Shown here: positions 1,542 through 19,715 of the stretch, piece after piece
How the letters are laid out: each line of letters starts with the position of its first letter
Numbering within the stretch: position 1 is the first letter of the stretch
Assembly (NCBI GenBank): GCA_036005065.1
Contig: DASYQW010000290.1
Coordinates: 1 to 35,916, forward strand
DNA: 35,916 bases
From: Candidatus Methylomirabilota bacterium
GTDB lineage: Bacteria; Methylomirabilota; Methylomirabilia; Rokubacteriales; DASRDR01
Direction: 5' to 3'
Position numbers and translations under genes: made by a program
Notes under the pieces: model-generated
Seen by the model: the letters and a program-made list of their open reading frames with translations, nothing else
What the model was told of the DNA's origin: nothing
Databases searched by the model: none

Positions 1542-2858
1542 CTATCCGTAGATCTTCCGGAGCTCGCCCTCGGCCCACTTCACCGCCTCTTCGGCCGGCA
1601 TGCCCTGGATGGCCTTGGCATACATGTCGACGACGACGTACTTCGAGTATCCTTCCGAGGCCTTGGCCGATGGCGGCCCGGCATACCCGAAGACGCGGAA
1701 GGCGCGGGCGGCGGTCCGGAACGGCAGCATGACCGGGTCCTGCTCCCACATCTTGTGCTTCTCCCAGTCGGTGGTCGCCCCGACGCTGAACCCCTTCTGG
1801 GCGACGAACCAGGGCTCGAAGTGCTCCTTCGAGTGGAGCCACTTGAGGAAGTCCTTGGCGAGCTTCTGGTTCTTCGAGTAGCCCATGATGGCGTGGTGGA
1901 ACGACGTGTGGTAGTGGTAGGTGCCGGCCGGGCCGGCCGGGTTGGGAGCGTGGAGGATGTCGGTGTGCATCAGGGCGCCGGTCTCCGTCTTGTACTTGTC
2001 CTTGTTCCGCAGCGACTCGACATAGATCGAGGCGCCGTTGATGGTCGCCGCGATCGTCCCCGAGAGGAAGGCCCGGTTGTTGTTGGTGTCGTCCCAGGCG
2101 AGCCCGCCCTCGTCGCAGGCGTCCTTCCAGAAGCCCACGAAGAACTTCACGGACTCGACCGTCTCCTTGGAGTTGATGGCGACGGTCCGGCCGTCCTTCT
2201 CGACCTCCTTGCCGCCCCACGCCCACATGGCCGGGTACCAGAAGGTGGGCGCATCGCCGAAGGTGTGGCCGGCGGTCTGGCCGATCGGGTAGCCCTTGGC
2301 CTTGAGCTTCTTGCCGACCTCGCGGTACTCCTGCCAGGTCTTCGGGAACTCCTTGGCCCCGACCGACTCGAAGAGCGACTTGCGGTAGGCGATCTGGCCC
2401 CCGACGATCGAGTGGGGAACGGCCCGCCAGACCCCGTTGACCCGGTCGAGGTCCTGCGTGACCGGATAATAGCCGCCCTGGGCCTTCCCGATCGCGTCGA
2501 CGACGTCGCCCACGTCCACCAGGCTCTTCTCGTAAAGGTGCGCCCAGTTGTGGAGCAGGTGGAACATGTCGGGGCCGCTTCCCGACGAGATGGCGGCGGT
2601 GATCCGCGGCTGGATGTCGTTGGCGTTGATGCGTTCCAGGGTGATCTGGGCGCCCAGCGCCTTCCCGGCCTCGTCCATCTGCTTGGTGAGCACCTCGTCG
2701 GCGGCCGGCACGAAATCGACCCAGCGCACGAGATGGAGCCTGGCGCCCTGGGCATAGGCCGGCGCCCGCCCGGCGTCCAGGATCCCCGCGAGTCCGGTGG
2801 CTGCCGCCGCTCCGCCCGCCACCTTGATGAACGACCGCCGGTCCATGCTCGTGTCCAT
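1542..2858 (-). CDS. Extracellular sugar-binding protein, family 1, Tat-exported (copy 1)
   Basis: This 438-residue periplasmic solute-binding protein captures substrate for the adjacent ABC permeases. The N-terminus has a twin-arginine motif (RRSFIK, residues 7-12), an Ala/Gly-rich segment and a likely cleavage site after AYA (residue 36). The body has the family-1 binding-protein pattern: a WVDFVP start, a GSGPDMF block and a GDAPTFWYPAMW block. An AGGGAGG ribosome-binding site lies 4 nt before ATG 2858; a second in-frame ATG lies four codons in. It is clearly paralogous to the gene immediately upstream (2939-4303), 80 nt away. The actual sugar cannot be told from sequence. Confidence 0.9.
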   Translation of the reverse strand: MDTSMDRRSFIKVAGGAAAATGLAGILDAGRAPAYAQGARLHLVRWVDFVPAADEVLTKQMDEAGKALGAQITLERINANDIQPRITAAISSGSGPDMFHLLHNWAHLYEKSLVDVGDVVDAIGKAQGGYYPVTQDLDRVNGVWRAVPHSIVGGQIAYRKSLFESVGAKEFPKTWQEYREVGKKLKAKGYPIGQTAGHTFGDAPTFWYPAMWAWGGKEVEKDGRTVAINSKETVESVKFFVGFWKDACDEGGLAWDDTNNNRAFLSGTIAATINGASIYVESLRNKDKYKTETGALMHTDILHAPNPAGPAGTYHYHTSFHHAIMGYSKNQKLAKDFLKWLHSKEHFEPWFVAQKGFSVGATTDWEKHKMWEQDPVMLPFRTAARAFRVFGYAGPPSAKASEGYSKYVVVDMYAKAIQGMPAEEAVKWAEGELRKIYG

Positions 2859-2938
2859 GAGGCCTCCCTTGTCGGTAGGGGCTGGGCCGAGGCCCCGGGC
2901 GCGCCCCGCGGGCGCACCCGGAGCCGCGACCGTTCAGG

Positions 2939-4303
2939 TCAGGCGTAGATCTTCTTGAGCTCGCCCTCGGCCCACTTCACCGACTCCTCGGCCGCCATGC
3001 CCTGCACGGCCTTGGCGTACATGTCGGTGACGATGTACTTGGTGTAGACCTCGGTCGCCTTGGCCGAGAACGGCCCCGCATAGCCGAAGGCGCGGGCGAA
3101 GCCCGACGCCGTCCGATACGGCTTCATGGGCGGGTCGAGCTTCTCCCACATCGGGTGCTGCTCCCAGAACTTGTTGGACCCGACCGAGTAGCCGGCCTCG
3201 ATCTGGAACCATTTCCCGAACTGCTCTTTGGAGTGCATCCACTTGAGAAAGTCCTTGGCGATCGGCTGGTTCTTCGAGTACTTCATGACCGCGTGGGCGA
3301 AGGGGACGTGATAGGAGAACTGGCCCCCCGGCCCCCCGGGCAACGGGAAGTGGTCGAGGTGCTTCCACATCTGGTCGCCCTTGTCGGTCTTGTACTGGTC
3401 GGGCTTGCGCTTGGCCTCGATGTAGATGGAGGCGCCGTTCAGGGTGGCCGAGATCGTCCCCGAGAGGAAGGCCCGGTTGTTGTTGGTGTCGTCCCAGGCG
3501 AGCCCGCCCTCGTCGTAGGCGTCCTTCCACATCGCCACCAGGAACTTCACCGATTCGATGGTCTCCTTCGAGTTGATGGCGACGGTCTTCCCGTCCTTCT
3601 CGACCTCCTTGCCGCCCCACGACCAGAGATACGGGTAGCTGAAGGTGGGCGCGTCACCGAAGGTGTGGCCCAGGGTCTGGCCGAACGGGAACCCCTTGGC
3701 CTTGAGTTTCTTGCCGGCCTCGCGGTTCTCCTGCCAGGTCTTGGGCGCCTTGGCTCCGGCCTCCTCGAAGAGATCCTTGCGGTACACGACGGCGTTGCCG
3801 ACCACGCCGTAGGGGAGGGCCAGGTACTGCTTCCCGATGAGGGCCGCCTGCTTGGAGAGCTCGTAGTAGGCGCCCTGGTCCTTCTCCTTCCAGGCGGCCA
3901 GGTCGCTCAGGTCGGTGCAGCCCCGCTGGTAGAGGTGCGTCCAGTTGTGGAGCATCTGGATGATGTCGGGGCCGTTCCCCGACTCGATGGCCGCCGTGAT
4001 CCGCGCCTGCATGTCGTTGGCGTTGATCCGCTCGAGCGTGATCTCGGCCCCGAGCTGCTTGCCCGCCTCGCCGACCTGCCGGGTCAGCTCCTCGTCGCCG
4101 GCGGGCACGAAGTCGACCCAGTGCAGGATGTGGACCTTCTTGGCCTGCGCCCAGGCCGGCGCCCGTCCCGACTCGAGGATGGCGGCCATTCCGGCGGCCG
4201 CGGCGGCCGTGGCGGCCGTGGCGCCGCCCGTCACCTTGAGGAACGTCCGGCGCCCGATCTCGGTGCGCCCCCGCGGATCCCGATGCTCGCTCTGCGTGTC
4301 CAT
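2939..4303 (-). CDS. Extracellular sugar-binding protein, family 1, Tat-exported (copy 2)
   Basis: This 454-residue paralogue of the downstream binding protein aligns over the whole mature length; I estimate by eye that more than half the residues are identical. The Tat signal is present (RRTFLK, residues 18-23), with a likely cleavage after AWA near residue 52. The strongest block (GGLAWDDTNNNRAFLSGTI) is identical in protein and also in DNA over 64 nt (3452-3515 versus 2052-2115). A GAGGAGG ribosome-binding site sits 7 nt before ATG 4303. As first gene of the operon it would be the most highly expressed. The two copies may bind different ligands for one permease pair. Confidence 0.9.
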   Translation of the reverse strand: MDTQSEHRDPRGRTEIGRRTFLKVTGGATAATAAAAAGMAAILESGRAPAWAQAKKVHILHWVDFVPAGDEELTRQVGEAGKQLGAEITLERINANDMQARITAAIESGNGPDIIQMLHNWTHLYQRGCTDLSDLAAWKEKDQGAYYELSKQAALIGKQYLALPYGVVGNAVVYRKDLFEEAGAKAPKTWQENREAGKKLKAKGFPFGQTLGHTFGDAPTFSYPYLWSWGGKEVEKDGKTVAINSKETIESVKFLVAMWKDAYDEGGLAWDDTNNNRAFLSGTISATLNGASIYIEAKRKPDQYKTDKGDQMWKHLDHFPLPGGPGGQFSYHVPFAHAVMKYSKNQPIAKDFLKWMHSKEQFGKWFQIEAGYSVGSNKFWEQHPMWEKLDPPMKPYRTASGFARAFGYAGPFSAKATEVYTKYIVTDMYAKAVQGMAAEESVKWAEGELKKIYA

Positions 4304-8386: not shown

Positions 8387-9742
8387 CTAGAAGGAGCGGA
8401 TCAGCCGCTCGACCCGCTCGTCGTGGGCCTGGAAGGGGTCCTTGCAGAGGATGGTCTCGCGCTCCGGGTCGTTGAGCTTCAGGTAGACCCAGTCGACGCG
8501 ATAGTCCTTCCCCTTGAGGTTGGCCCGCCGGATAAACTCCCCCCGCAGCCGGGCGCGGGTGGTCTGGGGCGGGATGTGCTTGGCCTGCTCGATCGCCTCG
8601 TCGGTGGCGAGGCGCTCGACCATGTCGTTCCGGGCCAGGAGGTAGTAGAGCCCGCGGTCGGGCCGGATGTCGTGGTACTGGAGGTCGATCAGCGACACCC
8701 GGGGGTCGCGCCACGACAGCCGGTGCTTCGCCATGTAGGTCTCGATGAGGTCCTTCTTGATCACCCAGTCCACGTCCCGGCTGCACGACATCGGATCGGA
8801 CTCGAGGCGATCGAGGAGGTCGCCCCAGCGCTCGATGATGTCCCGGGTGACAGGGTCGGGTTCCTGGTGCTCGTAATAGGCGCGCGAGGCCTCGAGATAC
8901 TCGCGCTGGATCTCGAGCGCGGTCAGGGAGCGGCCGTCCTTGAGCTTGACCGTCTCCCGGAGCCCGGGATCGTGCGAGATGTCCCGGATGGCCTGGACCG
9001 GCGACTGCAAGCTGTAGTCCCGATCGAAGTAGCCGTCCTCGATCATGTCGAGCACGACCGCCGTGGTGCCGACCTTGAGATAGGTCGCGACCTCGGACAT
9101 GTTGGAGTCGCCCACGATGACGTGGAGCCGGCGATAGCGCTCGGCGTCGGCGTGAGGCTCGTCGCGGGTATTGATGATCGAGCGCGACGACGTCGTCGCC
9201 CCCGAGATCTCCTGACAGATGTGCTGGGCCCGCTGGCTCAGGCAGTAGTGGAAGCCGCGCGGGGTCTGGAGGACTTTTCCGGCTCCGGCGAAGATCTGGC
9301 GGGTGACGAAGAAGGGAATCAAGGCCTCGGCCAGCCGCTGGAAGGAGACGTCCCGGGACACCAGGTAGTTCTCGTGGCACCCGTACGAGTTCCCGGCCGA
9401 GTCGGTGTTGTTCTTGAAGAGCAGGATGTTCCCGGAGATGCCGTCCTCGCGCAGGCGCTTCTCCGCCTGGTGCAGGAGGTCCTCCACGATCCGCTCGCCG
9501 GCCTTGTCGTGGACGCAGAGGTCCATGATGTCGTCGCACTCGGGGGTGGCGTACTCCGGGTGGAACCCGGTATCCAGGTAGAGGCGGGCCCCGTTTTCCA
9601 GGAAGACGTTGGCGTTGCGCGCCCCGGGGATCACCTTCTCGAACAGGTAACGCGCCACGTTGTCGGGCGACAGTCGACGCTGCCCGTTGAGGGTGCAGGT
9701 GAGGCCGTACTCGTTCTCGAGCCCCATGATTCGACGCTTCAT
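8387..9742 (-). CDS. pafA: Pup--protein ligase PafA
   Basis: This 451-residue cytosolic enzyme ligates the C-terminal Glu of Pup to substrate lysines using ATP. Length and sequence follow actinobacterial PafA closely: GLENEYG at 7-13 with the Mg-binding Glu9, LYLD with Asp57 at the proposed catalytic position, [27 protein letters not shown] and the C-terminal KLNDPE..CKDPF..DERV block. It lacks the extra loop seen in Dop. The start ATG 9742 overlaps the prcA stop as ATGA, so the two are translationally coupled. The gene closes the dop-prcB-prcA-pafA series and is followed at once by a strong hairpin. Confidence 0.96.
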
Positions 9743-10482
9743 GGTCTCCCCGTCGAGCGGTCGGCCGCCCCGGCTCCCGTGTCTGGTTGCCCTTCGCCGC
9801 GCCCGAGCTGTGCCCGGAGCTCGGCATCCGCGATGCGCCGGAACTTGCGGCGCTCCCGGTTCCGGTCGAGGACGGCGACTTCCAGATCGCGCTCCGTGAG
9901 CGTCTTGTTCTGGGTCACCGTCAGGGACCGGACCCCTAGCTGGATGGCCTCCGCAAGACTCATGCCGTCCCGATAGTGATCCTTCAGGAAGCGTCGGATC
10001 TCCTCGGCCTGCCCGCCCATGGCCGCGTAGTGGAGCTCGTCCTCGATCGTCCCGTCGTAGAGGATGTGGTACATCTCGTTCTTGCCGTTCGGCCCATCGC
10101 CGACCTCGACCACGAGCACCTCCACCTCGAACGGCTTGATGCCCTCGGTGAAGATGTTCCCCAGCGCCTGGGAATACGCGTTGGCCAGCGCCTTGGCGGT
10201 GACGTCTTCGCGGTGGTAGGAGTAGCCCTTGATGTCGGCGTGTCGAACGCCGGCGATGCGCAGATTCTCGAACTCGTTGTACTTGCCGACGCCGGCGAAG
10301 GCGATCCGGTCATAGATCTCGGAGATCTTGTGGAGGAGGGTGGAGGGGTTCTCGGCCAGGAGCAGGATGCCGTCCCGGTACTCCGCGGCGATCATGGAGC
10401 GGCCGCGCGCGATGCCCTTGCGGGCATACTCGGCCTTGTCCTTCATCATCTGCTCGGGCGAGACGTAGTAGGGCAGCGGCAT
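9739..10482 (-). CDS. prcA: 20S proteasome alpha subunit PrcA
   Basis: This 247-residue alpha subunit forms the outer rings and gate of the bacterial 20S core. It begins [13 protein letters not shown], matching the actinobacterial alpha N-terminus, continues with [10 protein letters not shown] and [15 protein letters not shown], and has no catalytic Thr. Start ATG 10482 is 11 nt after the prcB stop. A frame open further upstream is only the shadow of prcB. The last ~20 residues are Gly/Ala-rich and probably disordered. The stop overlaps pafA. The beta-then-alpha order is the usual one for these clusters. Confidence 0.95.
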
Positions 10483-10493
10483 CGGAACGACCC

Positions 10494-11339
10494 CTACCGG
10501 TTCCCCGAGCTGCCGTGCGCGTTCGCCGCACGGCGCGCGGCCAGCACGGCGTCGAAGTGCTCCCGGACCTCGGGCTCGGCGACCTCCTCGAAGCCGGTCC
10601 GGGTGATGACCTTGATGGACGGGTAGATCCCGTGGATGGGGTCCGGTCCCCCGGTGCCCACGTCTTCCTCGGCCGCGTCCACCAGCGCCTCGGCCGCCAT
10701 GCGCAGGGCCTCGCCGCGGGAGCAGGCGGAGCGATAGAGCTTCTTGAGGGTCGTCCGGGCGTCTTTGCCGCCGGAGCCGGTGGCGTAGTAGTCGATCTCC
10801 TCGTAGCGGCCGCCGGTGACGTCGTACTTGAAGATGCGGCCCTCGCCCCGCTTGAGGTCGAAGCCGGCGAAGATCGGGATGACGACGAGCCCCTGCATCG
10901 CGGCGGGCAGGTTCATCCGGATCATCTGGGCGAGCTTGTTGGCCTTGCCTTCGAGGGAGAGCCCGTCCCCCTCGACCTTCTCGTAGTGCTCGAGCTCGGT
11001 CTGGAACAGGCGGGCCATCTCGATCGACGGTCCGGCGGCGCCCGCGATGGCGATCGCGGAGTAGTCGTCGGCCTTGTAGACCTTCTCGATCCGGCGGTGG
11101 GCCACCTGATACCCCTCGGTGGCCTGGCGGTCCCCGGCCACCACCACCCCCTCGGCGTAGCGGACGGCGAGGATCGTGGTGCCCACCGGCACCCCGGGCG
11201 CGCCGTGGGCTTCGGGCGAGACGGCCGACAGCTCCCGGCGGGCGAGGACCGAGAAGTACTCCGGCGAATGGCCGCGGAAAATGTCGACGAAGCTCGCGTT
11301 GAGATAGTTCCCGAAGAGGGCCTGCCACCGATCGTGCAT
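10494..11339 (-). CDS. prcB: 20S proteasome beta subunit PrcB (precursor)
   Basis: This is the catalytic core subunit, 281 residues as a precursor. The propeptide is about 53 residues and the cleavage site lies in VPVG-TTILA, leaving Thr54 as the N-terminal nucleophile; a conserved VAGDRQAT segment and a GSGG..A active-site region follow. Propeptide length resembles that of Mycobacterium PrcB. I prefer ATG 11339, with GGAG 8 nt before it, over the in-frame ATG at 11360, because the latter lies inside a TATAAT promoter element. The dop stop lies 70 nt upstream, leaving no room for pup. A beta subunit of a eukaryote-like proteasome is excluded by the dop/pafA neighbours. Confidence 0.95.
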   Translation of the reverse strand: MHDRWQALFGNYLNASFVDIFRGHSPEYFSVLARRELSAVSPEAHGAPGVPVGTTILAVRYAEGVVVAGDRQATEGYQVAHRRIEKVYKADDYSAIAIAGAAGPSIEMARLFQTELEHYEKVEGDGLSLEGKANKLAQMIRMNLPAAMQGLVVIPIFAGFDLKRGEGRIFKYDVTGGRYEEIDYYATGSGGKDARTTLKKLYRSACSRGEALRMAAEALVDAAEEDVGTGGPDPIHGIYPSIKVITRTGFEEVAEPEVREHFDAVLAARRAANAHGSSGNR

Positions 11340-11358
11340 GGGGGTATCTCCGAAGGGC

Positions 11359-11367
11359 ATTATAGCA
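11359..11367 (-). promoter_or_regulatory. Extended -10 promoter element upstream of prcB
   Basis: The minus strand reads TGC-TATAAT (11367-11359), a perfect -10 with the TG extension that can replace a -35. Transcription would start near 11352 and give a leader of about 13 nt containing the GGAG of prcB. It lies in the 70-nt dop-prcB spacer and would allow core and ligase genes to be expressed separately from dop. Confidence 0.6.
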
Positions 11368-11409
11368 GGGCGCCGCTTCCTGGCCGGCGACGCACGATCC
11401 GGGTCAGGG

Positions 11410-12906
11410 TCAGACCACGGAGGGCTTGGAGATGTTGCGGAGCAGGTCCCGGGCGGTGGGAGACTCTTCGAGCAGCTGGCGGACGAACACCTCGGTCCCG
11501 CGGAGCGGCTCGAGCATGAAGATCTTCTTCAGGGGGCCTTCCTTGAGGTCGAAGATGATCGAGTCCCAGGAGGCGGACACGATGTCTTCCGAATAGCGCT
11601 GGAGGCACATCCCCCTGAAGTAGGCCCGCGTGTCCTTGGGCGGGTCGTGGATGGCCTTGGTGATCTCGTCGTCGCTGGTGATCCGCTCGACGGCCTCGGA
11701 ATCCTCCAGCTTGTAGAACAGCCCCTTGCCGGGCCGGATGTCGTGGTACTGGAGATCGATCATCGCCACTCGGGAGTCCGTCCAATCGAGGTCGTGCTTG
11801 GCGATGTAGTTCTCGAGCAGGTCCCGCTTGATGACCCAGTCGAGCTCCCGGGAGAGGGTCATCGGATCCTGCTCCAGGCGATCCAGGACGTACTCCCAGC
11901 GGACCAGGACGTCCTTGGTGACCGTGTCCAGCTCCCGATCGCGGTAGTAGCGATGGGCCAGCTCCAGGAACTCCCGCTGGAGGCCGACGGCCGTGACGGT
12001 GCGGCCGTCCTTGAGCCGGAGGGGCGCCCGGCACGCCAGGTCGCGCGAGACCTGGCGGAAGGACTGCACCGGGTTCTCCAGCGCGAGGTCCCGGTCGATG
12101 AAGTCGTCCTCCAGCATGGAGAGGACGATCCCGGTCGTTCCCACCTTGAGGTAGGTGGTGAGCTCCGACATGTTGGCGTCCCCGACGATCACGTGAAGCC
12201 GGCGGTACTTCTCGGGGTCGGCGTGCGGCTCGTCCCGCGTGTTGATGATGGGCCGCGAGTGCATCGTCTCCAGGCCGACCTCGGTCTCCAGGAAGTCCGC
12301 TCGCTGGGAGATCTGGTAGGGGGTGTACTCGAGGTTGTTCTCGGAGCCCACCTTCCCGGCGCCGGTGAAGATCTGCCGGGTCACCAGGAACGGCATCAGG
12401 TGCTGGACGATCCGGGTGAAGGGGCAGCGGCGGTCCATGAGGTAGTTCTCGTGGGTGCCGTAGCTGTTTCCCTTCATGTCGGTGTTGTTCTTGTAGATCA
12501 GGATCCGCTGCTCGGGCGGGGACACGGCTTCCGCCCGCATGCGAGAGATGTTGAGGACGCGCTCGCCGGCCTTGTCCCAGATGACCAGGTCCCGCGGGTT
12601 CGTGCACTCGGGGGTGGAGTATTCCGGATGGGCGTGGTCCACGTAGTACCGCGCGCCGTTGGAGAGGATCAGGTTGATGAGGCGCGACTCCTCCTTGGAA
12701 GGCAGCTCCTTCTCCTCGGCGTACTCGAACCCTCGGGCGTCCCGGAGCGGGCTCTCCGCTTCGTAGTCCCAGCGGATGCGCGCCGTCCGATACGTCTCAT
12801 ACGAGTTGATGAGGAGCAGCGAGGAGAGGATCGGGTTGAAGTCCGGCTGATTCCGGACCGTGATCCCGTACTCCGTCTCGATGCCCATCACCTTGGGGAT
12901 GGCCAT
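11410..12906 (-). CDS. dop: Depupylase/deamidase Dop
   Basis: This 498-residue paralogue of PafA removes Pup from substrates and deamidates Pup-Gln to Pup-Glu. The motif GIETEYG (8-14, Glu10), Asp90 in ARYYVD, KNNTDMKGNSYGTHENY and [10 protein letters not shown] show the shared ligase fold. The segment of roughly residues 38-75, between the first strand and the LSNGARYYVD motif, is the Dop-specific loop absent from PafA. Length agrees with Dop (about 500 residues). A GAGGA lies 4-5 nt before ATG 12906. An intrinsic terminator separates it from mpa, so its transcript depends on read-through or an unseen promoter in the 127-nt gap. If the genomic Pup ends in Glu, only depupylation is needed. 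Confidence 0.95.
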   Translation of the reverse strand: MAIPKVMGIETEYGITVRNQPDFNPILSSLLLINSYETYRTARIRWDYEAESPLRDARGFEYAEEKELPSKEESRLINLILSNGARYYVDHAHPEYSTPECTNPRDLVIWDKAGERVLNISRMRAEAVSPPEQRILIYKNNTDMKGNSYGTHENYLMDRRCPFTRIVQHLMPFLVTRQIFTGAGKVGSENNLEYTPYQISQRADFLETEVGLETMHSRPIINTRDEPHADPEKYRRLHVIVGDANMSELTTYLKVGTTGIVLSMLEDDFIDRDLALENPVQSFRQVSRDLACRAPLRLKDGRTVTAVGLQREFLELAHRYYRDRELDTVTKDVLVRWEYVLDRLEQDPMTLSRELDWVIKRDLLENYIAKHDLDWTDSRVAMIDLQYHDIRPGKGLFYKLEDSEAVERITSDDEITKAIHDPPKDTRAYFRGMCLQRYSEDIVSASWDSIIFDLKEGPLKKIFMLEPLRGTEVFVRQLLEESPTARDLLRNISKPSVV

Positions 12907-12990
12907 GCCGTCCTCGAGTCGCCGGTCCGCGCCTCCCGGTCACAGGGCCGGTCCCACCCAGGGGAGCCGGGCGCGGCCGAACGCTCACAG

Positions 12991-13027
12991 AAAAAGGGTG
13001 AGGGCAGCGCGGACGCCACCCTCACCC
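12991..13027 (-). terminator. Intrinsic terminator after mpa
   Basis: On the minus strand a perfect 9-bp stem GGGTGAGGG/CCCTCACCC (13027-13019 and 13004-12996) with a 14-nt loop is followed directly by TTTTT. It starts 7 nt after the mpa stop codon and points towards dop. This is the best intrinsic terminator in the window. Confidence 0.85.
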
Positions 13028-13033
13028 CTTCGT

Positions 13034-14857
13034 CTACAGGTATTGCCCGGTCGTGATCCGCTCCACCGGGCGGGTCTTCTCCTTGCCCTCGCCCATCAGC
13101 GGCTTCACGTACACGATGCGCTCGCCCTTCTTGCCCGCGATCTTCGCCCAGTCGTCGGGGTTGGTCGTGTTCGGCAGATCCTCGTTCTCCTTGAACTCCT
13201 CCCGGACTGCCGTCAGCAGGTTCTCCAGCATGATGCCCTTCTCGCCCGAGGAGATGTAGCGCTTGAGGGCGAGCTTCTTCGCCCGCCGGACGACCGATTC
13301 CATCATCGCCCCCGAGGCGAAGTCCTTGAAGTAGAGGATCTCCTTGTCGCCGTTGGCGTAGGTGACCTCCAGGAAGCGGTTCTCGTCGGACAGCGCGTAC
13401 ATCTCCTCGACCGCGGTGTTGATGAGCTGCTGAATGACGAGCCCGATGTCGCCGCCGTGCGCGCGGAGCTCCTGCTCGTGGATCGGGACGTCCGGCGTCA
13501 GATACTTCGCCAGGATCTCGACCGCGGCCGCCTTGTCGGGCCGGTCGATCTTGATCTTCACGTCGAGCCGCCCGGGGCGGAGGATGGCCGGGTCGATGAG
13601 GTCCTGTCGGTTCGAGGCCCCGATGACGATCACGTTCTTCAGGCCCTCGACGCCATCGATCTCGGCCAGGAGCTGGGGGACGATGGTGGTCTCGACGTCC
13701 GAGGAGATCCCCGAGCCCCGCGTACGGAAGAGCGCGTCCATCTCGTCGAAGAAGACGACCACCGGCACGTCCTCGGCCGCCTTCTCCTTGGCCTTCTGGA
13801 AGATCTCGCGGATCTTGCGCTCCGTCTCGCCAACGTACTTGTTCAGGAGCTCGGGGCCCTTGATGTTCATGAAGTAGCCCTTGATCTTTTCCCCGCGCTT
13901 CTCCGAGACCTTCTGGGCGAGATTGTTGGCCACGGCCTTGGCGATCATCGTCTTGCCGCAGCCCGGCGGCCCGTAGAGGAGGACGCCCTTCGGGGGCGTG
14001 AGCTTGTGCTCCTTGTAGTAATCGGCGTAGAGATACGGCAGCTCCACGGCATCGCGGATCGTCTCGATCTGCTGCCCGAGCCCGCCGATGTCCTCGTAAC
14101 CGATGTCGGGCACCTCTTCCAGGACCAGGTCCTCGACCTCGCCCTTCGGAAGCCGCTCGAGGAGGTAACCGGACTTGCCATCCATGAGGACGTGGTCACC
14201 GACCTTGAGCTTCGTGAGGCGGAGAGGCTCGGCGATGATCGCCACCTTCTCTTCGTCCGCACGGAGCGTGACGACGGCCCGGCCCTCGTCGAGGACGTCC
14301 TTGAGGATGACCACTTCGCCCTGGATCTCGTAGCCGGCCGTCTCGATGACGTTGAGCCCCTCATTCAGCACGAGCTCCTGGCCGGGCTTGATCCCCTCGC
14401 GCTTGATGGAGGGATGGAGGTTCACCTTCACCTTCCGCCCCGCCGAGAGGATGTTCACGGTGCCGTCCTCGTTGGGCGAGAGGAAGACGCCGTAGGTCGA
14501 GGGCGGGGCGCAGAGCTTGTCCACCTCCTCCTTCAGGGAGGTGATCTGCTCCCGGGCCTCGTAGAGGGCATTGACGAGCTTCTCGTTCTGGTTGAAGGCC
14601 TGCACCAGCTGGCGGTTGGCCTCGCGGAGCTTGTTCTCGAGGATCATCGACTCCTTGGGGGCATCCTCGAGCTTCTTCCGGAGGTGGACGGTCTCCGACT
14701 CCAGCGACCGGATGTAGGCCTGGAGGTCCTGGATCTGGATCTCGTACTCGGTCAGCCGGCGGCGGTACGCGGACTCGGTCATCGGCAGGAACTTGGACAG
14801 GCCCTTCACCCCCTCCGATTCACGGGGCGGATTACCCTTCTTTTCGAACTCTTTCAT
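13034..14857 (-). CDS. mpa: Proteasome-associated AAA+ ATPase Mpa/ARC
   Basis: This 607-residue hexameric unfoldase binds pupylated proteins by its coiled coil and threads them into the 20S core. Domains: coiled coil about 26-117, tandem OB folds about 118-245, AAA+ module with Walker A GPPGCGKT (296-303), Walker B FFDEMD (to residue 374), a GASNR sensor and RPGRLD. It ends in GQYL, the same C-terminal tail with a penultimate Tyr that Mycobacterium Mpa uses to dock in the alpha ring. ATG 14857 is chosen because a strong promoter lies at 14946-14975, upstream of it and overlapping the longer ORF; length then matches Mpa (about 609). Confidence 0.96.
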
Positions 14858-14945
14858 GGCCTCCCATTCCTTTCGTGAGCCAACCGCCCCGCTCACGGCG
14901 CCCCGACGGGACCCCGCCTCCGCAGTGCCCCCGTTAGGCCGAGCA

Positions 14946-14975
14946 AGTATAGGCAGTCGCAAAAAAGATTGTCAA
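14946..14975 (-). promoter_or_regulatory. Strong sigma70-type promoter of mpa
   Basis: The minus strand reads TTGACA (14975-14970), an 18-nt spacer that includes a run of six T, then TATACT (14951-14946). The transcript would start near 14939 with a leader of about 80 nt. A loosely symmetric ATTG...CAAT sequence (14968-14990) overlaps the -35 and could be an operator, but its arms match imperfectly. Confidence 0.8.
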
Positions 14976-16964: not shown

Positions 16965-17320
16965 GACCCATTGGACCGCTGGCCGCCTACGCCTGACCAA
17001 TCCGCGACCACGCCCGGTTCCTTTCTCACCGTCGGACGTGAACTCGGACACGCTCCAACTGGACTAAACAGCGTCGAACTGGTGGGAGGAATTCGGTCCC
17101 ATCTGAGCCGGTGACGCCTCGGGCGAGCTCCGATGGCGACCAGGATCTCACCAGACGTCGTTCCGCAGCGCCAGGCGGGAATCTCGCGAATTCGAGGAGT
17201 TACGTCCGAAGATGACGATGGCCTTGTGGTTGCATCATCGTGGGCCCACATAGCCCCACCCGGGGACGCCGAGGGATTCCCGGCGACCCCGGGGGGGGCG
17301 ATGGTGGGGGAGGGCGGATG
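16965..17320 (+). other. Intergenic stretch upstream of the first leader
   Basis: About 356 nt with no ORF of coding character on either strand and no clear terminator for the upstream gene. A TTGCATCATCG sequence at 17230-17240 has a near match (TTGCAACAACG) at 18454-18464 upstream of the second leader, but at a different distance, so it may be chance. Confidence 0.4.
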
Positions 17321-17423
17321 GGTCCGCACGTGGCGCTCAGTCGGCAACCTGATCTCCACGTCATCTGGTCCTACTTGGGGCTCGCCGGGGAAAAACCCCG
17401 GCGAAAGGTGAGGAGATGACGCG
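17321..17423 (+). promoter_or_regulatory. Conserved 5' leader, copy 1, with RBS-pairing potential
   Basis: This leader shares with 18515-18627 the blocks GGTCCGCACGTGGCGCTCAG (17321-17340), AACCTGATCTCCACGTCATC (17346-17365) and the GGTGAGGAGATGACG start region. ATCTCC (17352-17357) can pair with GGAGAT (17412-17417) at the Shine-Dalgarno, and CGTCATCT (17359-17366) with AGATGACG (17414-17421); the two pairings exclude each other. A perfect hairpin TCGCCGGGG-AAAAA-CCCCGGCGA (17382-17404) stands between. This is compatible with a translational switch; the ligand or signal, if any, is unknown. Confidence 0.6.
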
Positions 17424-18092
17424 ATGAAACCGCCTCGCGGTAAACAGCTGGCACTCGCGCTGGGGCTCGCGGTCGGGTTGCTGGTCACCCTGAGCCCGGG
17501 CCTGGCCCGGGCGGCCGGCCCGACTCCGTTCAGCGCGTCGGGCTCCTTCCTGGCCACGGAGTGCGCCACAGTCCCGTGGCTCATCGATGAAGGCGCCGTG
17601 ACGCCGGCCGGGGAGAGCGGGCGGTTCGTGGTCAAGAACCGCACCGTGTCCGGGACCCTCGATGGCCCCGACATCACCGGACCGTTTCTTCTGGACTTCG
17701 GGACCAACGTTCCGATCGCGACCCAGTCGGGGCAGATTCACGCCAAGCTGACGTTCGCGAACCCGCAGACTCAAGCGTCTGGGAGCGGATCGTCCAATTT
17801 TATCTTGGGACCTGCGGTGGTACCGCCAGGGTTTCCGTGCGACGGACAGCCGAAGGTGGTCGTTGTCCTGGGTATCACCGGCTCCCTGACTTTCACGGGC
17901 GGCGGCGTCCAGGGCAACGGCGACGTCGAGGGGACGTTCACGGTCGCCATCGATCCCGCGACGGGCCACATCGTCGGGCTGGTGCCCAGCGGTCTCCCGC
18001 TCTGCGACCCATCGATTCAGGACACTGGCGAGTGCATCCTCGTCGGGTTCTCATCGACCCAGCTCCAGATTCAGGGCGAGTGGCACCAGTAG
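17424..18092 (+). CDS. Secreted protein of unknown function
   Basis: I do not recognise the family. The 222 residues start with a Lys/Arg n-region, a 15-residue hydrophobic core and a likely signal peptidase site after ARA (residue 30). The mature part is rich in Gly, Ser, Thr and Val with alternating hydrophobic residues, suggesting a beta-sandwich or barrel, and has a few Cys that could form disulfides. Start ATG 17424 has GAGGAG 8 nt upstream; a three-codon frame (ATG 17416) ends on its ATG. The first seven codons resemble those of the gene at 18628 in DNA as well, tying the two to one duplicated leader. It is probably periplasmic or extracellular and monocistronic, with a terminator after it. 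Confidence 0.8.
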   Translation: MKPPRGKQLALALGLAVGLLVTLSPGLARAAGPTPFSASGSFLATECATVPWLIDEGAVTPAGESGRFVVKNRTVSGTLDGPDITGPFLLDFGTNVPIATQSGQIHAKLTFANPQTQASGSGSSNFILGPAVVPPGFPCDGQPKVVVVLGITGSLTFTGGGVQGNGDVEGTFTVAIDPATGHIVGLVPSGLPLCDPSIQDTGECILVGFSSTQLQIQGEWHQ

Positions 18093-18130
18093 GCCTCGAC
18101 TCGGAATCCTGATCGCGACCGAGCAGGACA

Positions 18131-18177
18131 GGGGTCCCGCGGGCCATTGAGAGGCCCGCGTGGACCCCTTCGCTTTT
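18131..18177 (+). terminator. Intrinsic terminator after the first secreted protein
   Basis: The arms 18131-18145 (GGGGTCC-CGCGGGCC) and 18153-18168 (GGCCCGCG-T-GGACCCC) pair with a single bulged base and a 7-nt loop. They are followed by TTCGCTTTT. It lies 38 nt after the stop codon. Confidence 0.75.
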
Positions 18178-18514
18178 GCCGCCGCTTCCCCGCCGAGCTG
18201 GTTGCGTGTTGAGCCCCTGCCGCTCAGTTCCTCACCTCGCTGGTCAGTCCGTATTCGATCCAGGTGCTCCTCCAGTAGATCCGAGCTCACGCAAGCGAAC
18301 GCGAACTGGTGAGAGAGCACGCCTCGTCCGGCGTTTCATTCGGGAATCCGGCCGCACGGCGCCCACGGCGAGCCGCTCAGGGGTGACCCGGTTCCACCTA
18401 AGAAAATGCTGAAATCCCAGGAGTTTGCACGCCACTTCCGCTTGGCCCTGCCGTTGCAACAACGAGCGGGCATGGAAACACTGGGCAGGGTGTGGCGAAC
18501 GGGAAAGGCGGAAT
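18178..18514 (+). other. Intergenic stretch upstream of the second leader
   Basis: About 340 nt without a supported gene; small frames on both strands look random. The end (18475-18514) begins to resemble the sequence before the first leader (a GGCGGA-TGG core), so the duplicated unit may extend some 30 nt further upstream. Confidence 0.4.
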
Positions 18515-18627
18515 GGTCCGCACGTGGCGCTCAGTCGGGCGGGAACCTGATCTCCACGTCATCTTCGGTCGCACTTGGGCCTCGCCGGGTCGACCCGATC
18601 CAGGCGAGAGGTGAGGAGATGACGCCA
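18515..18627 (+). promoter_or_regulatory. Conserved 5' leader, copy 2, with RBS-pairing potential
   Basis: The same ordered blocks as at 17321-17423: GGTCCGCACGTGGCGCTCAG (18515-18534), AACCTGATCTCCACGTCATC (18544-18563) and GAGGAGATGACG at the ribosome-binding site. The central hairpin differs in loop and length but keeps its base: CTCGCC (18581-18586) with GGCGAG (18603-18608), enclosing a GGGTCGACCC palindrome. Keeping the pairing while the apical part changes is what a structured RNA would show, though two copies are few. Confidence 0.6.
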
Positions 18628-19344
18628 ATGGAACCGCATCGCAGTCAACGTGGTGGCTTGAAGGTCGGCCTGCTGGCCGCGGGAGTCCTGCTCGGCCTGA
18701 GCTCGACGACCGCATGGGCGGACGGCTGCGCCTTCCAGGGATTGACGGTGAACGGCACCGTCAAGGCCGTGCTCCGCGAGACGCTCGAGAACGTGTCGTG
18801 GCCGGATGGCACCCGACAGGCCCAGGCGACCGAGATCGGCGATCTCCGCGACGGGTGCGGAACCCTGAGTTCGCTCGTCGGCGCCGCCGAGGCCCACGCG
18901 AACTCGCGGATCCCGGTGCTGGGCGCGCTCCCGAACGGGCTGCCGATCCTGGGCAAGGGTCCCACGTCCGGGACCTTCCTCGTGGACACCGCCGCCAGCG
19001 GGCAACAGCCCGGCACGCTGGATGGCGAGCTCGACTTCACGACGCTCTACGGAAGCCCGCTCTGCGGCGGCCCGTGCCCGTTCGTGCTCGCCTCGGGCAC
19101 CTGGAGCACGCTGGGCGACAACCAGACCGGTGGTGGCTTCGGCGGCGTGGCCCTGGTTCCCTTCGATACCACGCAGGGCTGTCCGGCCGTGCTGAGCCCG
19201 ACGGGCTGGTGCTACCTCGATCCGACCAGTACCCTGACGGGCTTCTCGGTTGCCGGTGGCACGCTGGCGCCGCTCGGCGCGGGCGACTTCAGCCAGCGCG
19301 ACGGGACGCCCCAGGCGATCTTCATCGTCACGCTGTTCCAGTAA
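18628..19344 (+). CDS. Secreted cysteine-containing protein of unknown function
   Basis: The 238 residues carry a signal peptide (hydrophobic core about 13-27, likely cleavage after AWA at 31). The mature part starts DGCAFQGL and has paired cysteines (CGGPC near the middle, later GWC), consistent with disulfides in an oxidising compartment. It is Gly/Thr-rich and likely beta-structured. No family recognised. ATG 18628 has GAGGAG 9 nt upstream; ATG 18619 in the same frame touches the Shine-Dalgarno and is unlikely. It shares leader and first codons with 17424-18092, but the mature parts differ too much to align by eye. The STAS gene follows after 17 nt in the same direction. Confidence 0.8.
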   Translation: MEPHRSQRGGLKVGLLAAGVLLGLSSTTAWADGCAFQGLTVNGTVKAVLRETLENVSWPDGTRQAQATEIGDLRDGCGTLSSLVGAAEAHANSRIPVLGALPNGLPILGKGPTSGTFLVDTAASGQQPGTLDGELDFTTLYGSPLCGGPCPFVLASGTWSTLGDNQTGGGFGGVALVPFDTTQGCPAVLSPTGWCYLDPTSTLTGFSVAGGTLAPLGAGDFSQRDGTPQAIFIVTLFQ

Positions 19345-19361: not shown

Positions 19362-19715
19362 ATGAGCACGACCGAGATCGCAGCCCCGATGGCGGCCCGG
19401 CCCGGGGTCCCGCCGCCGGAGGACGGCCTGGTCCACCTCCGGCTGCGCGGACCCCTGACCGCGTCGACGGCCCCGACGTTTCGCCGCGTGATCCGGAGCT
19501 ACGCCGAGACCGGCGAGCCCCGGCTCCTGCTCGACCTCGAGGACGTGCCGGCCATCGACGCCAGCGGCGTGGCGGCCCTGCTGGAGGGCCAGCGCGCCAT
19601 CGAAGGGCAGCCTCACGGCGTCCTGTTCCTCCGGTTGAACCCGACCGTCAGCTCGGCCCTGAAGCGCTCGAGCACGATCGCCGCGTTCCGCGTCTGGCGC
19701 GGTCCCGCGGTGTAG
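19362..19715 (+). CDS. STAS-domain protein (anti-sigma-factor antagonist-like)
   Basis: This 117-residue cytosolic protein is one STAS domain: LRGPLTASTAPTFRRVI at the start and DLEDVPAIDASGVAALLEGQ in the middle. The DASG motif keeps the Ser that is phosphorylated by anti-sigma kinases in SpoIIAA/RsbV-type antagonists (DSSG there). A Pro-rich 20-residue lead precedes the domain. No anti-sigma kinase or sigma factor is adjacent, so the partner must be encoded elsewhere. Co-transcription with a secreted protein gene 17 nt upstream is likely, and a terminator follows. Alternatives are lipid-binding MlaB-like STAS proteins; the retained Ser argues for the phospho-switch type. Confidence 0.8.
   Translation: MSTTEIAAPMAARPGVPPPEDGLVHLRLRGPLTASTAPTFRRVIRSYAETGEPRLLLDLEDVPAIDASGVAALLEGQRAIEGQPHGVLFLRLNPTVSSALKRSSTIAAFRVWRGPAV

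Follow-up and report, generated by a model that had tools for sequence, protein, structure and literature searches.

The window, by which we mean the whole stretch of 35,916 nucleotides that was analyzed, comes from a soil or groundwater bacterium. It carries two consecutive genes for secreted proteins, designated here families B and A, followed by a gene for a STAS-domain protein. Each secreted-protein gene is preceded by a copy of the same leader and, farther upstream, by a sigma-54-like promoter. The features, all on the forward strand, are as follows.

17218-17234, + strand: sigma-54-like -24/-12 promoter before leader copy 1, ATGGCCTTGTGGTTGCA; score 12.7 of 15.7, weaker than the site before copy 2
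17313-17359, + strand: 5' extension of copy 1, common to copy 2 only, with GGTCCGCACGTGGCGCTCAGTCGG (17321-17344) and GATCTCC (17351-17357) inside it
17360-17420, + strand: leader core, copy 1, made of the left arm GTCATCT, a bulge, ACTTGG, a hairpin and the Shine-Dalgarno (SD)/AUG strand
17381-17405, + strand: apical hairpin P3, copy 1, CTCGCCGGGGAAAAACCCCGGCGAA
17407-17420, + strand: SD/AUG strand, copy 1, GGTGAGGAGATGAC, with an upstream AUG at 17416
17424-18092, + strand: family B secreted protein, 222 aa, signal-peptide-like N-terminus, no Pfam/NCBIfam match
18442-18458, + strand: sigma-54-like -24/-12 promoter before leader copy 2, TTGGCCCTGCCGTTGCA; score 14.2
18507-18557, + strand: 5' extension of copy 2, from its alignment with copy 1
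18558-18623, + strand: leader core, copy 2, conserved across genomes
18581-18608, + strand: apical hairpin P3, copy 2, CTCGCCGGGTCGACCCGATCCAGGCGAG
18610-18623, + strand: SD/AUG strand, copy 2, GGTGAGGAGATGAC, with an upstream AUG at 18619 in frame with the main AUG at 18628
18628-19344, + strand: family A secreted protein, 238 aa, of an LYEVxE-type family
19362-19715, + strand: STAS-domain protein, directly 3' of the family A gene

An initial annotation of this DNA had described a duplicated leader in front of two secreted-protein genes whose mature products are no longer alike. The duplication is real and lies where it was placed. The two copies (17313-17445 and 18507-18649) share about 82% identity across about 120 nt, far above chance, and a search of the 5.6-Mb genome (G000) with the copy-1 leader (121 nt) found copy 2 with E = 2.6e-25 and no third copy, the best other match having E = 0.05. 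The proteins are indeed of different families, at most very distantly related, with only a weak profile match between them (hhalign probability 31%). The family A window protein has no Pfam match, a sequence search of the PDB returned chance-level matches only, and the AlphaFold models of the two secreted proteins are of low confidence (pLDDT 48 and 46.5).

Identity between the copies was then compared by segment. The far upstream DNA is 56% identical, the 5' extension 91%, the core 86% and the first 22 nt of the coding sequence 82%; beyond those, identity drops to 41%. The copied tract thus runs about seven codons into the coding sequence, slightly past the limits described in the initial annotation. 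Since the similarity takes in these first codons and a lineage-specific 5' extension, for which no conservation was found in other genomes, the closeness of the window pair is mostly a matter of recent copying or gene conversion, the alternative that the annotation had also offered. The core is not specially conserved between the window copies, and therefore their comparison alone does not demonstrate selection on RNA structure.

Homologous leaders were gathered by BLAST and covariance model. Nine full copies of a core of about 60 nt are present in 8 of the 60 genomes of the order, i.e., in the window genome and seven other Candidatus Rokubacteria, and all nine precede secreted-protein genes of family A or B. 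These copies score 66-85 bits with the covariance model and every other match scores at most 24 bits. A second covariance model (R2) with more permissive filters added no copies. The core was not found elsewhere in the phylum (95 genomes searched) or in viral contigs. A GTDB-wide exact-pattern scan gave five Rokubacteria matches and located the leader only in Candidatus Rokubacteria/Rokuibacteriota records; the other four pattern matches were rejected because the covariance model found no convincing leader in them.

The mean pairwise identity of the core among eight lineages is 0.80. The corresponding values are 0.38 for the 40 nt upstream, 0.36 for the first 60 coding nt and 0.34 for the coding body, with shuffling giving about 0.3. 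The downstream proteins are only 22-41% identical. Both the sequence and the position of the core are therefore conserved upstream of homologous genes in several genera, the pattern that characterizes a structured cis-regulatory RNA. This comparison decides whether the window pair could reflect nothing but the copying or gene conversion of some 130 bp, with no selection on RNA structure. The similar identities of the core, the 5' extension and the first 22 coding nucleotides in the window agree with that explanation, which cannot account for the survival of the core in seven further genomes despite flanks and proteins that have diverged nearly to background. We consider it quite unlikely; the core and flank identities refute it as the sole explanation, and it still accounts for the excess similarity of the window pair. 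Family B exists only in the window genome and in G016, where its homologue (L029/L086) carries the same leader, and the presence of one leader before this unlike family in two genomes counts toward the regulatory reading given below. Family A is larger (about 85 matches in 38 of 59 genomes of the order); most of its genes lack the leader, and the leader-bearing proteins are dispersed over its tree. Core length ranges from 59 to 66 nt, and the distance between its conserved blocks differs by up to 9 nt. The length differences are not multiples of three, so that the core does not encode a conserved peptide, and its variable length and spacing likewise speak against a rigid DNA site.

In the RNAalifold consensus of the nine sequences, the upstream segments GUCAUCUU and CUUG both pair with the SD/AUG strand UGAGGAGAUGAC; the hairpin CUCGCC/GGCGAG is enclosed by these pairings, and both the SD and the AUG are occluded. 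The pairing of both left segments with the SD/AUG strand in this fold would explain their conservation. As the initial annotation had noticed, the TCGCC/GGCGA stem of the apical hairpin is kept in both window copies with a differing loop; the apical sequences differ and yet remain paired, and across the set the pairing is preserved through changes in sequence and length (combined P = 8e-6). None of 300 loop shuffles of copy 1 folded as well, and a two-sided G-C to U-G change occurs in L051. The lower helix (GUCAUCUU/GAGAUGAC) is almost invariant across the nine sequences, shows no covariation and is therefore unproven by that measure. Single-sequence folds of L031, L032 and L034 favor other structures. 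Three related leaders (L056, L057 and L063) keep the SD strand and lack the left arm. Both the minimal covariation and the leaders without a complementary segment weaken the lower helix and leave the apical hairpin unaffected. In the nine cores, a longer bulge tends to go with a shorter apical loop (Spearman -0.74, P = 0.02), the total staying at about 60 nt. A short TCATCT/AGATGA hairpin in the leader-less L085 was judged to be at chance level.

The initial annotation had further proposed a switch between two mutually exclusive pairings, ATCTCC with GGAGAT and CGTCATCT with AGATGACG. The complementarity it saw is present in both window copies. However, the ATCTCC/GGAGAT pairing is not conserved: it holds in 74% of cells, 264 of 500 shuffles are as good, and it is poor in L029, L031 and L051. 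When segments of 77-83 nt were folded, it competed in copy 1 (0.53 vs. 0.45) and not in copy 2 (0.008 vs. 0.99). What survives of the proposed selection on RNA structure is a noncoding element able to mask the ribosome-binding site (RBS), conserved across genera before divergent proteins; the two-state switch is not upheld, and neither is the thermosensor considered below.

The AUG inside the GATGAC of the SD strand occurs in two arrangements, and in either of them the first AUG falls within the lower helix. In copy 2, L029, L031, L051 and the remnant leaders, it is in frame with the gene; L031, L037, L042 and L051 likely start there. Copy 1, L027 and L028 have it as the first codon of a three-codon ORF (MTR*) with a stop that overlaps the main AUG. 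This start-stop arrangement, ATGACGCGATGA or ATGACGAGATGA, spans 17416-17427 in the window and is also seen in L098; the overlap suggests possible translational coupling.

Taken as a whole, each copy is probably a cis-acting RNA leader that occludes the RBS and responds to a signal, and we put it forward as a candidate of that kind. The mRNA strand holding the SD and the first AUG would pair with the two left segments, which a bulge containing UGG and varying in length keeps apart, and the CUCGCC/GGCGAG hairpin with its variable paired extension would cap the structure. When closed, the leader would keep translation of the downstream secreted protein low, and it would be opened by a signal, which may be the binding of a protein, a small molecule or a ribosome upstream. 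Repression by occlusion, the trigger and its nature, and regulation in the cell are thus predictions of this model. The predicted cost of opening the RBS is consistent with it: the mean is 12.7 kcal/mol for the leader genes vs. 10.5 kcal/mol for leader-less family A genes (P = 0.02), despite the lower GC content of the former. Could the same structure act without switching, as a constitutive translation or stability element made of a strong SD and a protective 5' hairpin? The extended and strong SD strand GGUGAGGAG is retained where the left arm has been lost, in L056, L057, L063 and partly in L098, which fits such an element. However, it would leave unexplained why TCATCT and ACTTGG, each of them complementary to the SD/AUG strand, do not vary, and we find it rather unlikely.

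The remaining form of control raised by the initial annotation was an RNA thermometer, a hairpin that melts with rising temperature and frees the RBS. The RBS lies in a hairpin made imperfect by bulges and G-U pairs, which recalls ROSE-like elements, and ROSE-like and fourU thermometers likewise sequester the SD in an imperfect 5'-UTR hairpin (PMC11342760, PMC10586365). The leader differs from them in several respects. The ROSE U(U/C)GCU and fourU motifs are absent from all nine cores. Where the SD helix is the predicted fold, it seems too stable, with a predicted left-arm pairing of 0.63-0.96 at 60 C in both window copies, L027, L028, L029 and L051, so that it would stay largely closed up to that temperature. 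The genes are not known heat-shock genes. Moreover, thermometers are described as showing little sequence conservation among themselves (PMC11182007), and the primary sequence of the leader is conserved well beyond what is usual for them. A thermosensor is thus highly improbable here.

The promoters bear on a different explanation, in which the core acts as DNA and serves a regulator of the sigma-54 promoters as its operator or as an enhancer-type site. Sigma-54-like sites scoring at least 12.7 are present upstream of 51% of family A/B genes, while the reverse strand gives 0% and shuffles give 5%; for family A upstream regions and scores of at least 13, the figures are 44%, 0% and 3%. These sites, the location of the genes near sigma-54 activators, and the partial offset of bulge and apical lengths noted above are compatible with a DNA element. 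Against it, the core always adjoins the start codon, the spacing of its blocks is not fixed, and the promoter also occurs before family A genes that lack the leader. Furthermore, the window sites are separated from the core downstream of them by about 100 bp or more. Since such sites precede both window leaders, the leaders should be transcribed, and a role as DNA is decidedly improbable. Several leader copies sit between cluster genes, some of them with no clear sigma-54 site of their own. As a separate observation, family A is a large Rokubacteria family that has no Pfam match and is widely preceded by sigma-54-type promoters (upstream regions L065-L137), and its genes cluster with those for sigma-54 response regulators, HD-domain response regulators, methyltransferases and STAS proteins.

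In the relatives, the leader is often found within a signaling cluster that includes a sigma-54 response regulator, an HD-domain response regulator, a REC protein and one or more UbiE-like methyltransferases, and that continues with the leader and a family A or B gene, then a STAS protein and a histidine kinase. Family B in G016 occupies the slot held by family A in G058, and the STAS gene lies 3' of both. The window has leader-B, leader-A and then the STAS gene.

Among known systems, the riboswitch expression platforms that control translation, a general class of 5'-UTR RNAs overlapping the SD and AUG, resemble the leader in being compact, conserved 5'-UTR RNAs able to hide both elements, with conserved unpaired nucleotides beside helices. 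They differ from it in that the leader has no Rfam riboswitch match, its second pairing is not conserved, it precedes uncharacterized secreted proteins near signaling genes, and any ligand is only putative. Protein-bound translational operators, such as ribosomal-protein leaders and CsrA/RsmA sites, likewise have a conserved hairpin whose specific bulge covers the RBS. Inspection of the copies led us to reject a CsrA/RsmA-type operator, as no GGA outside the SD, in a loop or otherwise, is common to all copies. Searches of Rfam 15 gave no match to the leader (window leaders, E up to 10; eight homologous loci, E up to 2), and the hits obtained at permissive thresholds were unrelated and low-scoring. 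A literature search on riboswitches, candidate structured RNAs and sigma-54 control in Rokubacteria found nothing relevant. The leader is therefore best described as a candidate RBS-overlapping regulatory RNA of narrow distribution that stands outside Rfam.

One specific version of the signal-responsive leader would be a Rokubacteria riboswitch class in which the UUUGG...ACUUGG bulge and the apical hairpin bind a small signal. We regard this as unlikely. If it were true, the bound ligand would either expose or block the RBS of the genes for the secreted A and B proteins. Our guesses for the ligand are cyclic di-GMP, because HD (HD-GYP-like) response regulators share the cluster, or a product of the clustered methyltransferases. 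With or without a small ligand, the proposed RBS-occluding leader gives an uncultured lineage a candidate cis-regulatory RNA and marks a set of uncharacterized secreted proteins, drawn from two families, that are apparently controlled by sigma-54 promoters and RBS occlusion. It also offers a compact model RNA, the core alone of which should carry the activity into a standard reporter strain.

Two other loci of the window, both on the - strand, were noted. A Pup-proteasome locus (8387-14962) encodes two Pup-ligase-family proteins, a proteasome subunit and a proteasomal AAA ATPase with OB domains. At 1542-4303, there are two consecutive solute-binding-protein genes (Pfam SBP_bac_1/8) with similar N-termini, probably a tandem duplication.
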